Virus record (IMG/VR): IMGVR_UViG_3300033141_002403
Coordinates: 1-39,575 of that record
DNA from: a virus
DNA length: 39,575 bases
Strand: one strand, 5' to 3'
Shown: positions 659 to 28,290 of the stretch, piece after piece
Layout: each line of letters begins with the position of its first letter
Position numbering within the stretch: the first letter of the stretch is position 1
Notes under the pieces: generated by a model
Databases searched by the model: none
Told to the model about the DNA's origin: nothing
Seen by the model: the letters and a program-made list of their open reading frames with translations, nothing else
Program-made: the position numbers and the translations under genes

Positions 659-3600
659 ATGTCGATTAGTCCTTGGTTGCAGGAAGATGAGAAACAGGTA
701 AATCCTTGGTTGCAAGATGCGCCTCAACAAACAAACCCCTGGTTGCAAGATACGCCTCAACAGGTAAACCCTTCAAATCCTTGGCTAGAAATGGGCACTC
801 AAGAAAAAAGCCCTGAAGATGTTAAGCAGGGCTTTTCTCTTGAGGATTATGCCGGCAAACAGTTTGTAAATGTTCCTATGGGTGCACCAATAGGCCAGGC
901 TATGGATGCCGTTTACAAGTATGGCACTGGCGCGGTAATGTCTTTGTTTGACTTGCTTCAACGAGGACAGTACGCAAGTGCAAATGCTGTGAATGAACTT
1001 CTGGCGCGAACTGGTATCGGTGGTTATGGTTCATATCCTAAAGAGTGGCAGAAACCTATTGGGACTGCCATTTTAGAAGGACTTTCAGGCAAGACGAAAG
1101 GCAGTTATCTCGATGTAGCCGGCAAACTGTTCCAACCACAGCTAGAAGCATGGCAGAAAACCTGGGAAGAACGAACACAAAACTGGCCGGGGTGGTTGAG
1201 AGCTGCATGGCTTAAAGCGCCTGAATTTATCATGGTGCGTGGTTTAGGTTTAACAGGTGACATTGCACTGGATCCAGGCAATTACTTGGGTTTGGGCGCA
1301 CCTGTAAAAGGTGGAAGGGCCCTGCTATCTTTTGCTGGGAAATCTATAACTCCTCAGAAAATAAACAAGGTTGTGTTTGACAACTTAGCAGATTGGGCGA
1401 ATGCTTTCCGAAAATCCAAAGCAGGCCAACTTTTGACGAGATACTTGTCTGCTAAGGGGCCAATTAGCGACCAAGAATTGTGGCAGTTATCGCGAGAATA
1501 CGAAGCGCTTGCCGAACATATGAGGAATGAAGCTATTAAGAACAACATTCCTTTTGAGCAAGCTATGCAAGACATAGAAAAAAATCTTGGTATCTCGCGC
1601 GAAGCCATGATGGAGCTTTTGGAGAAGAAGTATGAAATAAGACAACCTTCCCTTGGTGCTGCTGGTTTGACAATAGATGAAGGTGTGCCCGGCGGTGAAG
1701 TTGTCGGCAAGGGCCGATGGGTAAAGAAAGCAGATCCTAATGCTTTGGCTAATCTTGAAGCATTAAAAAAAGCTTTAGGCGAAACAGAAGAACAATTGGC
1801 AGAAAAAGTTATATATCATGTTGATGAAATGCTTCGGGAAATCAAACAAGGGACGCCGGGGTTCCGATTCAGCACATATGAGGGGGAATGGGGGGGGCAA
1901 CCTTCTACCTATCCTGACTGGATAAAAGAACAGCATCTGGATACCAAAAGGGCAAAACAAGCTTTGGAGAAGATACGCAAAGATCCGTTGAAGGTGTTGT
2001 TAGGCGAATCATACACCTATATTCGTAATGGTGTTGAACACGAAGATGATATAGCCAACTATATTGCCGGCACTATAAAAGAACGTTTGACAAAAGGATA
2101 TGGCAGTGAACGTTTCTTAATGCGAGTTCCTCCTGATGAAGAAGTTCAGGGTCTGCTTGATTTTCGTGAAACTTTACGGCAACAGATGGAAGAACCGATA
2201 CCGAAACGGCCAACATTAGTTTTCGGTGAAGGCAATGATATTGTGCAACCTCGATTAGTGGGATCTGCTTCAGAGGTTCCTGTTGGGCCACCTTCAACCT
2301 GGACTTATGTTGTCAAACCTGGCGATACGCTTAGCGAAATAGCAAAGGCTAACAACACAACTGTTGAGGAATTGGCAAAACTCAACAAGATTGATAACCC
2401 GGATCTGATACGAGTAGGCCAAGAAATACGGATTCCTGCCCGGGTTGAGGGGATGGAACAGATACTTGGCCATGTTGAAAGGCCGTTGATAGAAACCTTA
2501 CCTGAAGATGTTGTCAAACTTCGCAACAGAATACGTAAACACCAGGATGAGATTCTACAGGCTGAAATAAAGGCTGGAATAGATATTTCCCCACTTGATG
2601 ATGAATTAGTAGCTTATATGGGGCATTATCGGACTAAAGAAGCGCGGGAAGCTATGAAAAAAGCAGGCCTGACGTGGGAGCAAGTCATTAAACAAGCTTC
2701 ACAACACCCGTCCACACGGGCTAGAAATATTCGGGGGTTAACAGCTCAAGAAATAAATGAGCTGGCTAGAACCGGAGAATTGATTCCTGGGTTTAAGGGA
2801 GAATTGTTGCAGGTAGACCCCATAGCTGTTCAAACTGTGCGCGATATGTATTCTGCTTCTGCTCGTGCTGGTGCACAGTTTATTGATGAGGTGAAAGCCA
2901 ATCCACAATGGGCAGTACCTGCTGGTGATACCATGCCAGTAGGTTTTAAACCACCTACGGATGAAATGAAGAAAAGGTTTGGAAGCAAGGTAGAGGGGTA
3001 TTTGTTCTCGGATGAAGCGCGAGAAGCTCTAACCAAATATGCCAAAGCAATGGATCCGGAAAAACTCGATCCTATTATCAAAGCCATAGATACATTCTAT
3101 CGATTCTGGAAACCGTATACTCTGGCAACACCAAAATGGATTGCCAATAACATTATTGGTAATCTGTGGAATGGCCTATGGCTTGGTGATATGAACCCTG
3201 CATCGTTGGTGCGGGGTCTGAGAGCAATGGTTGGTTCCTCTAAGAAGCTCAAGGGAACAAACCTAACCTATAAGGAAGTGCTAGAACAAGCCAAACGGCT
3301 TGGTGTTTATGATTCAGGCCTTTTTGCTACGGCTACCGAAAAAACGTTGCGTGAGAAGTTAGTGGGAGGCGACTGGGTTAGCCAGTTGACAAAACCAGCG
3401 CAACCAATTATGTCTGCGAACAGAGCAATTGAAAACCATATGCGATTGTCAATGTTCGTGGATAGACTTTCAAAGGGTTATAGCCCTAAAGCAGCAGCAA
3501 ATGACGTGAAGAAATTCTTGTTTGACTATACAGAGCTAAGCGATTGGGAGAAAAATGTCGCCAGACGTTGGTTGCCTTTTTACACTTGGCCGCGGAAAAA

Positions 3601-8889: not shown

Positions 8890-9437
8890 GTATGGCAGAA
8901 GAATACTTAGAGTATCTTGACAGCCAAGTAGAGGCCGAACAGGAAGGTTTTGTTATTGATAACGATGACAAGGCCGATTGGGCGTTGAGGAAAATCGCTC
9001 AGGCTGAAAAACGGATACAGGAACGGGCCGAGTTTGTTGAAACCGAAATGGCAAAGCTGCAGGCATGGCAAAGTCAACAGGATGCACAAGACAAGCGCAC
9101 CATAGAGTTTATGACGGGGTTGCTGAAAATATACTTTGGCAAACTTCGGGAAAGTGGAACGTTGGGCAAGAAAAAATCCTATAAACTGCCCAACGGCACG
9201 TTAGCAGTGAGAAAGAAACAGCCGAAGCTGGCTTACGATGCCGATGCTTTCATCGCATGGGCCAGCAAAGAAGCTCCCGAATACGTTGCAACCATCTTGC
9301 AACCCCGGTGGGGTGAGTTTAAGAAGAGGATCAAAGTCATTGGCAGGGACGTAGTGGACACTGAAACAGGGGAAACTATCAAGTTTGTGACTGTTGAGGA
9401 ACCAGAAAGTGAATCTTTCTCTGTGAAAACCAGCTAG
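8886..9437 (+). CDS. Gam-like host-nuclease inhibitor
   Basis: The protein is 183 residues starting at the ATG inside the ATGA overlap. It has the Mu Gam-like layout: ADWALRKIAQAEKRI near the N-terminus, a long coiled coil to about residue 90, then the beta region KLPNGTLAVRKKQPKL followed by an AFIAWA helix. Known Gam proteins bind double-stranded ends and protect phage DNA from host exonucleases. The next genes (Sak4-like ATPase, SSB) belong to the same recombination cassette. A Siphovirus Gp157-type annotation would be the main alternative. Confidence 0.75.
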   Translation: MSMAEEYLEYLDSQVEAEQEGFVIDNDDKADWALRKIAQAEKRIQERAEFVETEMAKLQAWQSQQDAQDKRTIEFMTGLLKIYFGKLRESGTLGKKKSYKLPNGTLAVRKKQPKLAYDADAFIAWASKEAPEYVATILQPRWGEFKKRIKVIGRDVVDTETGETIKFVTVEEPESESFSVKTS

Positions 9438-20777: not shown

Positions 20778-21010
20778 CGGTTATTAGATGGAAACATACT
20801 CCCAAACCAAGGCCGCTTTCGGATTATCGTGAGCGGCCTTGTATTTTGGAGGAAGGTATGCTTATTGAGTTGCGTCACAAGCCTGGTTTGTGGCGCATTC
20901 TTCTTGTTGACAGACGTAATAGGCAGGTTGAAGTGGTGCCCTACCGCGGGAAAGGAGAGAGTGAATGGGAACCGTGGAAGAATATACTTGCGATAGCGAG
21001 CACCATGTAA
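20774..21010 (+). CDS. small phage protein, unknown function
   Basis: The protein is 78 residues from TTG 20774 behind GGAGGTGATAG. The C-terminal half looks like an SH3-type barrel (MLIELRHKPGLWRILLVDRR, QVEVVPYRG). It lies between thyX and the late regulator and overlaps both. Function unknown. Confidence 0.55.
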   Translation: MTVIRWKHTPKPRPLSDYRERPCILEEGMLIELRHKPGLWRILLVDRRNRQVEVVPYRGKGESEWEPWKNILAIASTM

Positions 21011-21471
21011 GAGAAGAATGGTTTCAGCGAACGGAACGGTGGTTGTATCATCGTCGTCAATGGGCGGCGGAAGTTATGGCGTGGTTGGCAGAGCAGGAAG
21101 AATTAACCAGGGAACCTAGTGTTGGTGTAGCCAAATACTCACTTGCTCCGGTGTTCGGCGGGTTTGAGGTAAGTTCTACTGAGTGGTATGCGATACAGAA
21201 TGCAGATAGAGAGAATAATATGCCTGTCCAACTACGCGAGAAAGCCAAACGGGTGCGGCAGCTTGACTACGCTATACAAGCCCTGGGGCAACAAGAACGG
21301 GAGCTTGTGAGGTTAAAATACGACGAACACCTTGAGAATATAGAAGTATGGTGCGAATTGCGGTTATCGAGGTCGGTTTATTATGAAATGAGACGGCAAA
21401 TTGTTGAGACGGTGGCCCAAATTCTAGGTTTCCGGACGAATTCCGGACTAATACCGGACTCAAAAGCCTAA
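20965..21471 (+). CDS. ArpU/RinA-type late transcription regulator
   Basis: The protein is 168 residues from ATG 20965, behind GGAGAGAG. The C-terminal half fits the sigma-70 region 4-like helix-turn-helix of this family: ERELVRLKYDEHL and RLSRSVYYEMRRQIVETVAQILG. Known members activate the late operon or packaging genes in Gram-positive phages. The position, last before the noncoding switch region and the late genes, agrees. Candidate targets are the AGTCA motifs or a promoter in 21472-22170. Confidence 0.82.
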   Translation: MGTVEEYTCDSEHHVREEWFQRTERWLYHRRQWAAEVMAWLAEQEELTREPSVGVAKYSLAPVFGGFEVSSTEWYAIQNADRENNMPVQLREKAKRVRQLDYAIQALGQQERELVRLKYDEHLENIEVWCELRLSRSVYYEMRRQIVETVAQILGFRTNSGLIPDSKA

Positions 21472-21633
21472 TTTTTGTGATAATATGTTACCGGTGGCAC
21501 TTGGGCGACCACGCTGCTACCTCTCTGCAGCATTAGCATTCCTCCCTTTTTTGCGTGACGGATCGGGGTTTCCCGGTCGACCCGGCATTGGGGGCCAGCC
21601 GGGTTATCAAATTGGCTCCCCAAATGGGATCGT

Positions 21634-21669
21634 ACCCCGGAAACCTTCGAGGCCCGGGGTCCATTTTTT
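21634..21669 (+). terminator. intrinsic terminator 1 of the late switch region
   Basis: ACCCCGG (21634-21640) pairs with CCGGGGT (21654-21660), with an inner CCT-TCG-AGG hairpin, and is followed by CCATTTTTTG. It lies 160 bases after the late regulator gene. Confidence 0.75.
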
Positions 21670-21852
21670 GTTTGGGGCAGTTAATCTGAAACATTCTCCG
21701 GTTTGGAGGACTAAGGCTTTTGTGGTCTGAGGATTCACTGCCCTGACGAGAATAAGGCCGAGGGCTAATGTCCGACGCCTGGACGCGTTGTCGTTGAAGT
21801 CCGTACCATCCGGAACGGAGGTTAGTAGGCGGCAGGGCGTCTTTATTTATAT

Positions 21853-21928
21853 GGGCCAGTACCCGAGTGGCTAAAGGGAACAGAATGTACATCTGTTTTC
21901 GTTGGTTCGAATCCAACCTGGCCCACCA
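21853..21928 (+). tRNA. tRNA-Tyr(GUA)-like gene without long variable arm
   Basis: The 7-bp acceptor GGGCCAG/CTGGCCC is perfect. The D-arm has a CCC/GGG stem with loop GAGTGGCTAAA. The anticodon stem is ACAGA/TCTGT with loop ATGTACA (anticodon GTA). The T-arm is GTTGG-TTCGAAT-CCAAC, followed by discriminator A and encoded CCA. The D-arm is of the class II type normal for bacterial tRNA-Tyr, but the variable region is only TTTC (21897-21900). Position 37 is C instead of the nearly universal purine. It may be a divergent phage tRNA or a tRNA-like domain of a larger RNA. Confidence 0.8.
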
Positions 21929-21970
21929 AGTGTTGTCTGTGGCACTCGGGGGCCCCACACAGACTATACC

Positions 21971-22018
21971 AAAGCACTTCGCGGGTCGGTGCTTTGTGAT
22001 ATACCTAGCAAGACCCGC
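21971..22018 (+). ncRNA. H-type pseudoknot
   Basis: Stem 1 is AAAGCAC (21971-21977) with GTGCTTT (21989-21995). The intervening loop holds GCGGGTC (21981-21987), which pairs with GACCCGC (22012-22018). Both stems are perfect 7-bp helices with classical loop lengths (3, 1 and 16). It lies between the tRNA and a terminator. Confidence 0.65.
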
Positions 22019-22033
22019 CAAGCAAGATCATTC

Positions 22034-22064
22034 GCCTGCCCTCTTTCGGGAGGGTGGGCTTTTT
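22034..22064 (+). terminator. intrinsic terminator 2 of the late switch region
   Basis: GCCTGCCCTC (22034-22043) pairs with GAGGGTGGGC (22050-22059) in 10 pairs, two of them G-U, and is followed by five T. It ends the putative RNA. Confidence 0.85.
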
Positions 22065-22094
22065 GTATTCCCTGCTTCGGCGGCAGGGGGTTAA

Positions 22095-22127
22095 GGCGAC
22101 GGTTTCTCCTCTGGCCGTCGCCTTTTT
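22095..22127 (+). terminator. intrinsic terminator 3 of the late switch region
   Basis: GGCGACGG (22095-22102) pairs perfectly with CCGTCGCC (22115-22122), followed by TTTTT. It lies 44 bases before the first late gene, so late transcription must start after it, or read through it by antitermination. Confidence 0.85.
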
Positions 22128-22170
22128 GTTTGCCGACAGAGGAGAAATTCAAGCAGAGGAGAGAGCGCGT

Positions 22171-23331
22171 TTGTGGAAAAAAGTCAGCGCTTTGAAAGCG
22201 CACCCTTTGAATGAGCGGCTGTATGGAAATGAGGAATTGCCACAGGGGTTTATTGCAAGCATACAAACACAGGGCATATTAGTACCTCTCGCCGTCAAAG
22301 CGAACGGCACCATTATCAGCGGCCATAGACGCTGGCGGGCGGCTCAGGCGCTGGGAATGGATACCGTACCGGTGCAGATCGTTGCGTATGACAACGAACT
22401 AGACGAACGAGAGGCAATAGTTGAATTTAACCGTCAACGAGAAAAAACCTTCTCGCAGAAGATGGCTGAGGCCGAGGAATTGAAGGCTATTGAGTCCGAG
22501 AGAGCGCGAAAAAGGCAGGCGGAAGCCGGCAAGGCTAACTTGCCAACCGTGAGTGGTGGAAACATTTCCACCACTCAGCAATCTGAAAAAGGAAAGACGC
22601 GCGATAAGGTAGCGCAGGCCATTGGCCTGGGAAGTGGGCGTACGTATGAGAAGGCGGCTAAAGTCTGGGAAGCCGCCAAACAAGGCGACGAAACTGCTAA
22701 GAAAGTTGTTGCTGAACTAGATGCTGGTAAAAAAACAATCAATGCTGCCTACAAACAGGTTGTAGTGCACAAACAACGTCAAGAACAAGCGGAGGCCATA
22801 CGTAAAGAACCTCCACCTTTGCCTACTGGTCCTTTTCGGATAATCGTGGCCGATCCACCTTGGCATTATGATAAGCGGCCTGATGATCCGACACATCGGG
22901 CAGCGTTGCCTTATCCAAGCATGACAGTGGATGAGATATGTGCTTTGCCAGTGCAGAAACTGGCGGCAGATGATGCCGTTTTGTGGTTATGGGCGACAAA
23001 TGCGCACCTTCCTGACGCGTTTAGTGTTGTAGAAGCATGGGGTTTTCGGTACAAGACATGCTTAACGTGGGTAAAAGATCGCATGGGTACAGGGGATTGG
23101 TTGCGAGGACAGACAGAACATTGTCTTATGGCCATTCGGGGCAAGCCTGTTGTAATGCTGACAAACCAGACAACAGTATTGCATGGCCCGGTGAGAGAAC
23201 ATAGTCGCAAACCTGATGAGTTTTACCAGCTTGTGGAAGAGTTGTGCCCTGGTTCCAAAGTCGAGTTATTCGCAAGGACACAACGGGAGGGGTGGATAGT
23301 ACATGGCGACGAAATCCACCTCTTTACGTGA
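22171..23331 (+). CDS. ParB-like domain fused to MT-A70 adenine methyltransferase
   Basis: The protein is 386 residues. TTG 22171 is chosen because GAGGAGAGAG lies 6 bases upstream; a longer frame from 22054 would run through two terminators. The N-terminal ParB/sulfiredoxin-like domain (about 5-95) has ISGHRRWRAA. A helical linker follows (about 95-215). The C-terminal MT-A70 domain has the N6-adenine methylase motif DPPW (228-231) and the segment VLWLWATNAHLPDA. It should methylate adenine in DNA, perhaps to protect phage DNA from host restriction. The stop lies inside the nuclease gene that follows. Confidence 0.88.
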   Translation: MWKKVSALKAHPLNERLYGNEELPQGFIASIQTQGILVPLAVKANGTIISGHRRWRAAQALGMDTVPVQIVAYDNELDEREAIVEFNRQREKTFSQKMAEAEELKAIESERARKRQAEAGKANLPTVSGGNISTTQQSEKGKTRDKVAQAIGLGSGRTYEKAAKVWEAAKQGDETAKKVVAELDAGKKTINAAYKQVVVHKQRQEQAEAIRKEPPPLPTGPFRIIVADPPWHYDKRPDDPTHRAALPYPSMTVDEICALPVQKLAADDAVLWLWATNAHLPDAFSVVEAWGFRYKTCLTWVKDRMGTGDWLRGQTEHCLMAIRGKPVVMLTNQTTVLHGPVREHSRKPDEFYQLVEELCPGSKVELFARTQREGWIVHGDEIHLFT

Positions 23332-26592: not shown

Positions 26593-28290
26593 GTGATTGA
26601 TGTTGATAAGCTGACGCCTGAAGAGCGTGAGGCGCTCAGTGTAGCAGTGAAACTACAAGAGACAAGAATCCGGGGGAAAGATGACCCGGCTTTTTTTATG
26701 TCCTCCCAGCTGCGCATTAAGGATAAGAATGGTAAATTGGTGCCTTTCAAGCTTAATGCTGCGCAGTGGGAATTGCACAGTGTAGTAGAGGATTTAAGGG
26801 CACAAGACAAACCGATACGGATTATCATCCTTAAAGCCCGGCAGGAAGGTATATCAACCTACATTGCAGGTCTGTTTTACTGGGCGGTGACTAACCACGA
26901 AAACAGAACTGCTATCATTGTTGCGCATAAAACAGATGCTTCAGAAGAACTTTTTGCCAAACAAAGACTGTTCTATGATGAACAACCGGAACCTCTTCGG
27001 CCTATGAAACGATATTCTAGCAAACGCGAATTACTGTTTGAGAATCCTAATGAAGTAGAAAGGCCAAAAAATCCGGGTTTGCGCTCCCAAGTGAAGGTTG
27101 ATACTGCCGGTGATGAAGACTTGGGCCGTTCACAGACGATCCAATACGTTCACTTGTCAGAGTTTGCGTTTTGGCCGGATGCTGAGAAATCATTCACTTC
27201 TATTGCCCAATGTGTGCCCGAATCATCAGAAACTATGCTTTTTATTGAATCGACGGCCAATGGTATTGGGAACGAATTTCATAAGATGTGGCAGGCAGCA
27301 GTTAACGGCGAATCCGACTTTGTTCCTGTGTTCATCCCGTGGTTTCAGCTTCCTGAATATAGGCGGGAATTTCCTGACGATGCTGCGAAAGAAGCGTTTG
27401 CAGTCAGTTTAACTGATGACGAACAGGAAATGATGGAAGCTTATGGGCTTGACCTTGAACAGCTCAATTGGCGAAGATGGACGATTCGCAACAAGCTCAT
27501 GGGCGATGAGGAGATGTTCAAGCAAGAGTATCCATCAACGCCGGAAGAAGCGTTTCTCACTTCTGGTAGACCTTATTTCGACCGCAAGGCTCTTGAGATT
27601 CATTTGGCTAGGTGTCGCAAGGGTATTAAGGGTGATGTGATAGACAAGGAATTTGTTAAGAATGATGATGGATACTTGGAAGTGTTTGAACAACCACAGG
27701 ATGACGTTCCTTATGCCATTGGCGCTGATGTTGCTGAAGGGCTTGAAAAAGGCGATTATAGCGCTGCTGTAGTGTTTAACAGGCAGACGTTAGATGTTGC
27801 GGCTGTCTGGCATGGACATATAGATCCTGATGTGTTTGGAGACGAGATTAACAAGCTAGGGCATTATTACAATACTGCCTGGGTTGCTGTTGAAAGCAAT
27901 AACCAAGGGATAGCAACAAACAAACGATTGGTTAAGCTTAATTACCCGAGGCTGTATCACCGACAAACTGTTGATGAGGAAAACCCTCGGGAAACAAACA
28001 AAGTAGGTTGGTTGACTGGTCAACGAACAAGGCCGCTTATGCTTGCTGAATTAGCGGCCTATATTCGCGAGTTCGAAGGGAAGATGAATAGCCGACGGTT
28101 TGTGCAAGAGTGCTTGACTTTTGTTCGTAACGAGAAGGGCAAGCCAGAAGCTGAAGAAGGCGAACACGATGACATTGTTATGGCAGCAGCAATTGGGCTA
28201 CAGGTGCACAAACAATGCCCGGTGCCGAGAAAACGCAAGAAACGACGAGTTAAACGGCCCAGGCAGGTGGGCAAGCGAACGGCGTATTGA
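26593..28290 (+). CDS. terL: large terminase subunit
   Basis: The protein is 565 residues from GTG 26593, behind AAGGAGGTG. The ATPase half has the phage-type Walker A KARQEGIST (81-89) and a Walker B region YVHLSE (185-190). The RNase H-like nuclease half has Asp379 (GADVAEG), Glu434 (AVESNN) and Asp526/Asp527 (EHDDIVMA). It drives DNA into the prohead and cuts concatemers. A headful or site-specific mechanism cannot be decided from this alone. The portal follows 12 bases later. Confidence 0.93.
   Translation: MIDVDKLTPEEREALSVAVKLQETRIRGKDDPAFFMSSQLRIKDKNGKLVPFKLNAAQWELHSVVEDLRAQDKPIRIIILKARQEGISTYIAGLFYWAVTNHENRTAIIVAHKTDASEELFAKQRLFYDEQPEPLRPMKRYSSKRELLFENPNEVERPKNPGLRSQVKVDTAGDEDLGRSQTIQYVHLSEFAFWPDAEKSFTSIAQCVPESSETMLFIESTANGIGNEFHKMWQAAVNGESDFVPVFIPWFQLPEYRREFPDDAAKEAFAVSLTDDEQEMMEAYGLDLEQLNWRRWTIRNKLMGDEEMFKQEYPSTPEEAFLTSGRPYFDRKALEIHLARCRKGIKGDVIDKEFVKNDDGYLEVFEQPQDDVPYAIGADVAEGLEKGDYSAAVVFNRQTLDVAAVWHGHIDPDVFGDEINKLGHYYNTAWVAVESNNQGIATNKRLVKLNYPRLYHRQTVDEENPRETNKVGWLTGQRTRPLMLAELAAYIREFEGKMNSRRFVQECLTFVRNEKGKPEAEEGEHDDIVMAAAIGLQVHKQCPVPRKRKKRRVKRPRQVGKRTAY

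Follow-up and report, generated by a model that had tools for sequence, protein, structure and literature searches.

The window studied here, a viral record of 39,575 bases, probably encodes a real late-leader RNA that carries a tRNA-derived module, and the reading that we favour and hold with some confidence gives this RNA an accessory role toward the tRNA machinery. The layout of the sequence, its repeats, its tRNA domain, the absence of genes and the recurrence of tRNA-like modules at the same site in other phages are all directly visible. Assignment to a late leader follows from the order of the parts, which is shared with related leaders: a regulator gene, phased repeats, a -10 box, a hairpin at +1, a tRNA-derived structured part, a terminator and the late genes.

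The window carries an integrase, replication genes, ThyX, a late regulator, a ParB-MT-A70 methyltransferase, a terminase and later genes. The late transcriptional regulator gene (20965-21471, plus strand) encodes an Ltr/ArpU-like protein of 168 aa, which matches a transcriptional regulator family (phrog_36, 1.7e-13) and a transcriptional activator family (phrog_248, 7e-9), its match to Pfam DUF1492 falling just under the cut-off. From the end of this gene, 699 bases extend to the TTG start of the ParB-like/MT-A70 methyltransferase gene (22171-23331, plus strand; Pfam MT-A70, 8.5e-35; ParB_N, 2.9e-10), the first gene downstream of the leader. Open reading frames of at least 60 aa are present in 21472-22170; the five that were tested gave no match above chance in Pfam or PHROG, in agreement with the sequence-only reading, which had found no credible gene in this stretch. 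Related phages were collected by means of the window's terminase large subunit, a packaging and late gene (26593-28290, plus strand; phrog_2, 7e-39).

Three direct 11-bp repeats, TTCCGGACGAA, TTCCGGACTAA and TACCGGACTCA, lie inside the 3′ end of the regulator gene (21430-21462, plus strand). They are followed by an extended -10 element, TGTGATAAT (21476-21484, plus strand), part of a putative late promoter whose -10 box GATAAT (21479-21484) is located 20 nt downstream of the third repeat, so that the RNA would be expected to start at about 21491. Three phased repeats and a -10 box were scored together by a measure designed post hoc, once the sequences were known; the window scores 29 and the best of its shuffles 25 (0 of 200 as good), and in L093, L116 and L120 the score is equalled by 0-1 of 200 shuffles. 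Repeats of this kind belong to the published design of late promoters: the phi13 Ltr gene has four at its 3′ end, and for TP901-1 Alt there are four imperfect repeats from -76 to -32 (PMC13123087). As in Ltr/Alt late promoters, the regulator gene of the window (phrog_36, phrog_248) is directly upstream. Since repeats and -10 box follow this design, 21472-22170 is most likely the start of the late transcript, with a leader predicted to run from about 21491 to 22066. Compared with late promoters of the Ltr/Alt/RinA/ArpU type (phi13 P23, TP901-1), the window has in addition a long structured leader that contains a tRNA domain and ends in a terminator.

Phased repeats with a -10 box were also scored in 27 gaps upstream of terminases in the terminase-relative set. 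Those of L029, L079, L082, L093, L102 and L103 were matched by at most 1 of 100 shuffles, whereas L039 (7 of 100) and L080 (22 of 100) are without convincing repeats despite a similar regulator upstream; the protein upstream in L095/L096 reads like a sigma-like late regulator, yet no such repeats were found there. Among the 27, gaps with a sigma-like late regulator upstream mostly have repeats, and gaps behind other proteins do not stand out. Relatives of the window regulator carry 11-bp repeats in L167 and L173-L175; neither a tRNA nor convincing repeats were found at L165, L166 and L169-L172. L173, L174 and L175 are three prophage regions of one genome, in which the repeats are accompanied, within the roughly 760-nt gap that follows the regulator, by a T-arm-like hairpin, CAATTGGTGAGAGTCCAATG.

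The predicted leader RNA opens at about +1 with a hairpin (21493-21521, plus strand) in which GGTGGCA (21493-21499) pairs with TGCTACC (21515-21521), and which is seen in the full-length minimum-energy fold. The structured 5′ part as a whole (21491-21852, plus strand) has a folding z of -2.6; within it, 21491-21671 reaches -0.9 and a branched domain at 21672-21852 reaches -3.3, and a terminator-like hairpin, CCCCGG/CCGGGG with a T run, occupies 21632-21669. Downstream of the tRNA domain, a hairpin GTCTGTG/CACAGAC (21935-21964, plus strand) appears in the fold of 21929-22066. Its loop repeats the GGCACTYGGG of the 5′ hairpin, which might reflect an internal duplication or a kissing or dimer contact. 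A pattern search then places an H-type pseudoknot at 21970-22018 (plus strand), with a first stem of 8 bp (21970-21977/21989-21996) and a second of 7 bp (21981-21987/22012-22018). The strict pattern, with stems of at least 8 and at least 7 perfect pairs within 60 nt, occurs three times in the entire 39.6-kb window, each time inside the region, and 1.6% of region shuffles hold one; the clean two-helix pseudoknot of the sequence-only reading is thus borne out. The probable 3′ end of the leader RNA is an intrinsic terminator (22034-22066, plus strand) formed by an 11-pair stem (22034-22059) and TTTTT. Terminator-like sites are four to five times as frequent in the region as in its shuffles (6 observed, 1.3 expected). 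A terminal hairpin with a T run had also been noted before, and strong terminators do exist at 22034-22059 (TTTTT) and at 22093-22124 (TTT), the latter belonging to the methyltransferase gene (L002/L003, see below).

The folding energy of the region is only moderately better than chance. Against only 20 shuffles, 21472-22140 has a z-score of -5.6, and 21491-22066 has -3.7 against 30; the separate domains of the leader range between -0.9 and -3.3. Among 20 segments of 360 nt sampled elsewhere in the genome, mostly coding, five have z of -2.8 or below. Because other mostly coding segments of the same genome reach z of -2 to -6, energy alone is no proof of an ornate RNA, and the z-scores were dropped as main evidence.

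An embedded tRNA-like gene, already suspected from the letters, was confirmed at 21853-21928 (plus strand) as a tRNA-Tyr(GTA)-derived domain with encoded CCA, both by ARAGORN and by the Rfam tRNA model (57.1 bits against a cut-off of 29 bits). The domain shares its acceptor, D, anticodon and T stems, GUA anticodon and CCA with tRNA-Tyr genes of bacteria and phages, and differs from them in a variable arm 9 nt shorter, in A32 and C37, and in sitting inside a long leader. None of the 20 stem pairs (7+3+5+5) is broken, which favours selection on this copy. In comparison with the bacterial tRNA-Tyr genes L106-L109, it measures 76 nt instead of 85 nt, the difference being a 9-nt gap in the variable arm, so that their long (class II) arm is absent; the anticodon loop is changed at C32 (to A) and A37 (to C). 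The long variable arm of bacterial tRNA-Tyr is an identity element for the bacterial tyrosyl-tRNA synthetase. Judged by these positions, the window copy is neither a decayed nor a textbook tRNA-Tyr. In tmRNA and other tRNA-like RNAs, as in the related leaders described below, tRNA-like ends are joined to other structured RNA, whereas the tRNA of the window is nearly complete; ARAGORN reported no tmRNA.

The domain could simply be an ordinary phage tRNA-Tyr gene located in a late leader, the flanking stems being terminators or processing signals, with RNase P and 3′ processing freeing a working tRNA and the rest being degraded. The Rfam score of 57 bits, the encoded CCA, the intact stems, the terminator-like appearance of several flanking hairpins and the general frequency of tRNA genes in phages all fit this explanation. 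We nevertheless consider it unlikely, if by no means far-fetched, given that the 9 nt are missing from an arm that serves synthetase recognition, that position 37 is a C, that a plain tRNA gene needs no structured 5′ part of 360 nt, and that the tRNA-like domains of related leaders probably cannot decode.

These related leaders were found behind regulators of the same kind in Bacillota prophages. A strict T-arm pattern, a statistic likewise devised after the sequences were known, is present in 9 of 29 such leaders where 0.03 would be expected, frequently within a tRNA-Leu-like domain, and is lacking in the other 20; one genome contributes three of the nine as copies, which leaves about seven independent cases with the window among them. 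In L155, L156, L158, L120 and L119, tRNA-Leu-like domains lie between the hairpin and the terminator, with a D arm TGGCGGAATAGGTAGACGC or close to it, a T arm and an acceptor stem, and a long insert replaces the ordinary anticodon arm, for which reason they are probably unable to decode. Paired changes occur in their acceptor and T stems, in a sample of only five sequences. In a Cohnella prophage (L093) the corresponding gap measures 477 nt and holds a tRNA-Leu-like gene according to ARAGORN, whose default setting gave no match in 540 shuffles; the loose setting (-ps80) was discarded, with 94 matches in the same number. The L103 leader combines an acceptor AGGAATG/CATTCCT with a T arm GTGAG-TTCGATC-CTCAC (control 1/650). 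At 8480-8616 of L103, this T arm overlaps a second one, CCCGG-TTCGATT-CCGGG, and the two may pair with alternative acceptor strands, possibly forming a switching tRNA-like element.

Two natural pairs of leaders (L156/L157 and L158/L159, about 1490-1930, reverse strand) differ in this cargo. L156 and L157 have the hairpin and the terminator in common, the tRNA-like domain being found in L156 only; L158 and L159 repeat the pattern of presence and absence with a cargo of about 280 nt. A cargo that can be there or missing while the hairpin and terminator around it stay the same is an exchangeable module. This presence and absence suggests an accessory role, for which action on the tRNA machinery is the simplest guess. 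A late promoter, structured leader, tRNA-like cargo and terminator that recur together, with phage pairs differing only in the cargo, offer a direct test of the role of a tRNA-like RNA in the late phase.

For the window, regulator binding, transcription, termination, processing and function are steps that we infer, and the favoured reading of a late leader with a tRNA-derived accessory module would join them as follows. The late regulator (20965-21471) would bind the three helically phased 11-bp repeats that end its own gene and turn on the promoter with the -10 box at 21479-21484. The first product would be an RNA of about 575 nt stopping at the terminator at 22034-22066, and the late genes would be supplied by read-through of this terminator. 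The structured leader RNA would carry the tRNA-Tyr-derived module and the pseudoknot; the module, folded and cut like a tRNA, would serve as an accessory part that the tRNA machinery recognises, and may either stabilise the RNA or, late in infection, decoy tRNA-acting enzymes. Tentatively, as a claim that falls slightly short of an even chance, Ltr-driven late leaders of Bacillota phages may be a hot spot for structured RNAs of an undescribed class, in which captured tRNA-derived domains, flanked by a +1 hairpin and a terminator, form an exchangeable cargo, either tRNA-Leu-like with the anticodon arm replaced or tRNA-Tyr without the variable arm; the window RNA would then be a lineage-specific member, abundant late and engaging or misleading the tRNA machinery. 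The late-leader site may thus mark an overlooked kind of phage RNA, tRNA-like pieces recurring there in related bacterial viruses, and the place to search for further such RNAs is immediately behind the late regulator gene.

Starting from L093, two conserved RNA motifs were recognised in other phages. R2 is a hairpin close to +1 of Bacillota prophage late leaders, with a conserved core GGTAGCTNNATGCGCAGTCG; 11 of 300 genomes from the Cohnella family contain it. It is located at L079 8068-8132, L080 8436-8500, L082 8491-8555, L103 8390-8455, L116 1412-1478, L029 8956-9021 and, in L155-L164, at about 1501-1567. Across 15 distinct sequences, 12 of its 21 pairs change on both sides, and its covariation score is equalled by no shuffle. 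R1 is a strongly covarying motif of about 105 nt (L093 8424-8540; L116 1493-1612; L119 11358-11477, minus strand; L120 415-534; L128 1501-1645, minus strand; L142 7115-7239, minus strand; L144 8332-8450), in which 13 of 26 pairs have changed on both sides (7 sequences, 0 of 500 shuffles). It also seems to hold a pseudoknot helix, GUGG/CCAC becoming GCGG/CCGC in the L128 alignment. R1 often has a -10 box just 5′ and a terminator-like hairpin 3′, mostly behind late regulators; in L144 it lies between portal-like and capsid-like genes. The R1 region of L115/L116 has no Rfam match. Matches to R1 below about 30 bits (L122-L125, L129-L134) were discarded for want of an adjoining phage regulator, as was the match in L121, which adjoins cellular-looking genes; the pattern matches L136-L141 and L143 are not recognised by the R1 model. 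Model searches with filters off detected neither R1 nor R2 in the window region, and its kinship with these leaders is therefore one of position and layout, not of sequence.

R2 bears on a further possibility, a processive antitermination leader (as HK022 put, or like the lambda late leader), whose RNA would modify RNA polymerase to pass the terminators at 22034-22066 and 22093-22130 into the late genes. Strong terminators do separate the late genes from the putative late promoter, no clear promoter follows them, and a conserved, covarying hairpin lies near +1 in the late leaders of other phages. That hairpin, however, is absent from the window, L079 and L080 seem (read by eye) to have another extended -10 past the terminator, and the tRNA module would be left without a role; we regard this mechanism as improbable, though still a live rival.

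To our knowledge, GOLLD and ROOL, large phage RNAs found near tRNAs, had no known function for years. That the window RNA is a divergent relative of either, building an RNA nanocage, had some appeal from its comparable length, phage origin, late timing and embedded tRNA and pseudoknot, and is now very improbable, as neither GOLLD (RF02032) nor ROOL (RF03087) gave an Rfam match even at E<=10 in 21400-22300 and targeted searches yielded nothing above cut-off. These searches covered the window together with five related genomes or records. For GOLLD the sole match had 10 bits and lay at 9132, away from the region; for ROOL there was none, nor did the control genomes give one, so that no positive control scored. 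The window RNA resembles GOLLD, a large RNA of phages and prophages whose level rises in the lytic phase and which often lies near tRNAs, sometimes with a tRNA in its linker, but is shorter, does not match its Rfam model and has no recognisable match to a GOLLD 3′ domain. It resembles ROOL (about 580-660 nt, prophage-borne, near tRNA islands, with pseudoknots) without matching its Rfam model at any threshold used. Weak Rfam matches at E<=10 (HepC_CRE, Plastid-ycf2, CRISPR-DR58 and others) lie far under their cut-offs and were attributed to chance. The proposal of a GOLLD, a ROOL or a new class therefore survives in part: a non-coding, probably late RNA with an embedded tRNA is retained on the strength of the Ltr-type repeats, -10 box, terminator and layout of relatives, and membership in GOLLD or ROOL is not supported. 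A new RNA class is possible, the best support being the analogous leaders of other phages. Homologues of the window RNA itself were sought by blastn against 50,697 phages, where the matches listed covered only the tRNA and its surroundings (one, H1, was rejected as a cellular tRNA-Tyr locus), by exact 16-mers in viral contigs, which gave chance matches only, and by a 22-mer in genome contigs and by class and phylum sweeps, which gave none. No published description of such leaders was found in the open-access literature.

The sequence-only reading had also treated 21480-22170 as one long RNA. A leader RNA extending to about 22066 agrees with this; the remainder, 22068-22170 (plus strand), is a second unit, with a hairpin at 22068-22090 and the terminator-like hairpin at 22093-22124 (followed by TTT). 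The segment matching window 22068-22150 is kept in L002 (1764-1850) and L003 (1350-1430), where a related ParB-methyltransferase lies directly behind a terminase gene, without an intervening tRNA or long gap. Since the segment is kept before that gene without the upstream tRNA or RNA, we assign 22068-22170, by sequence comparison, to the leader of the methyltransferase gene and not to the late-leader RNA, whose probable end is 22066. The window's loop TTTCTCCTCTG (22103-22113) is complementary to CAGAGGAGAAA (22137-22147, 11 bp) or to CAGAGGAGA (22154-22162, 9 bp) in the ribosome-binding region; the corresponding L002 loop, TCCTCCGTG, forms 9 bp with CACGGAGGA and 8 bp with CACGGAGG. The loop and the downstream copies are both altered between the window and L002 with the pairing preserved, L002/L003 keeping the segment with loop and copies that differ from the window and are complementary all the same, and the methyltransferase leader resembles an on/off switch of translation or termination.
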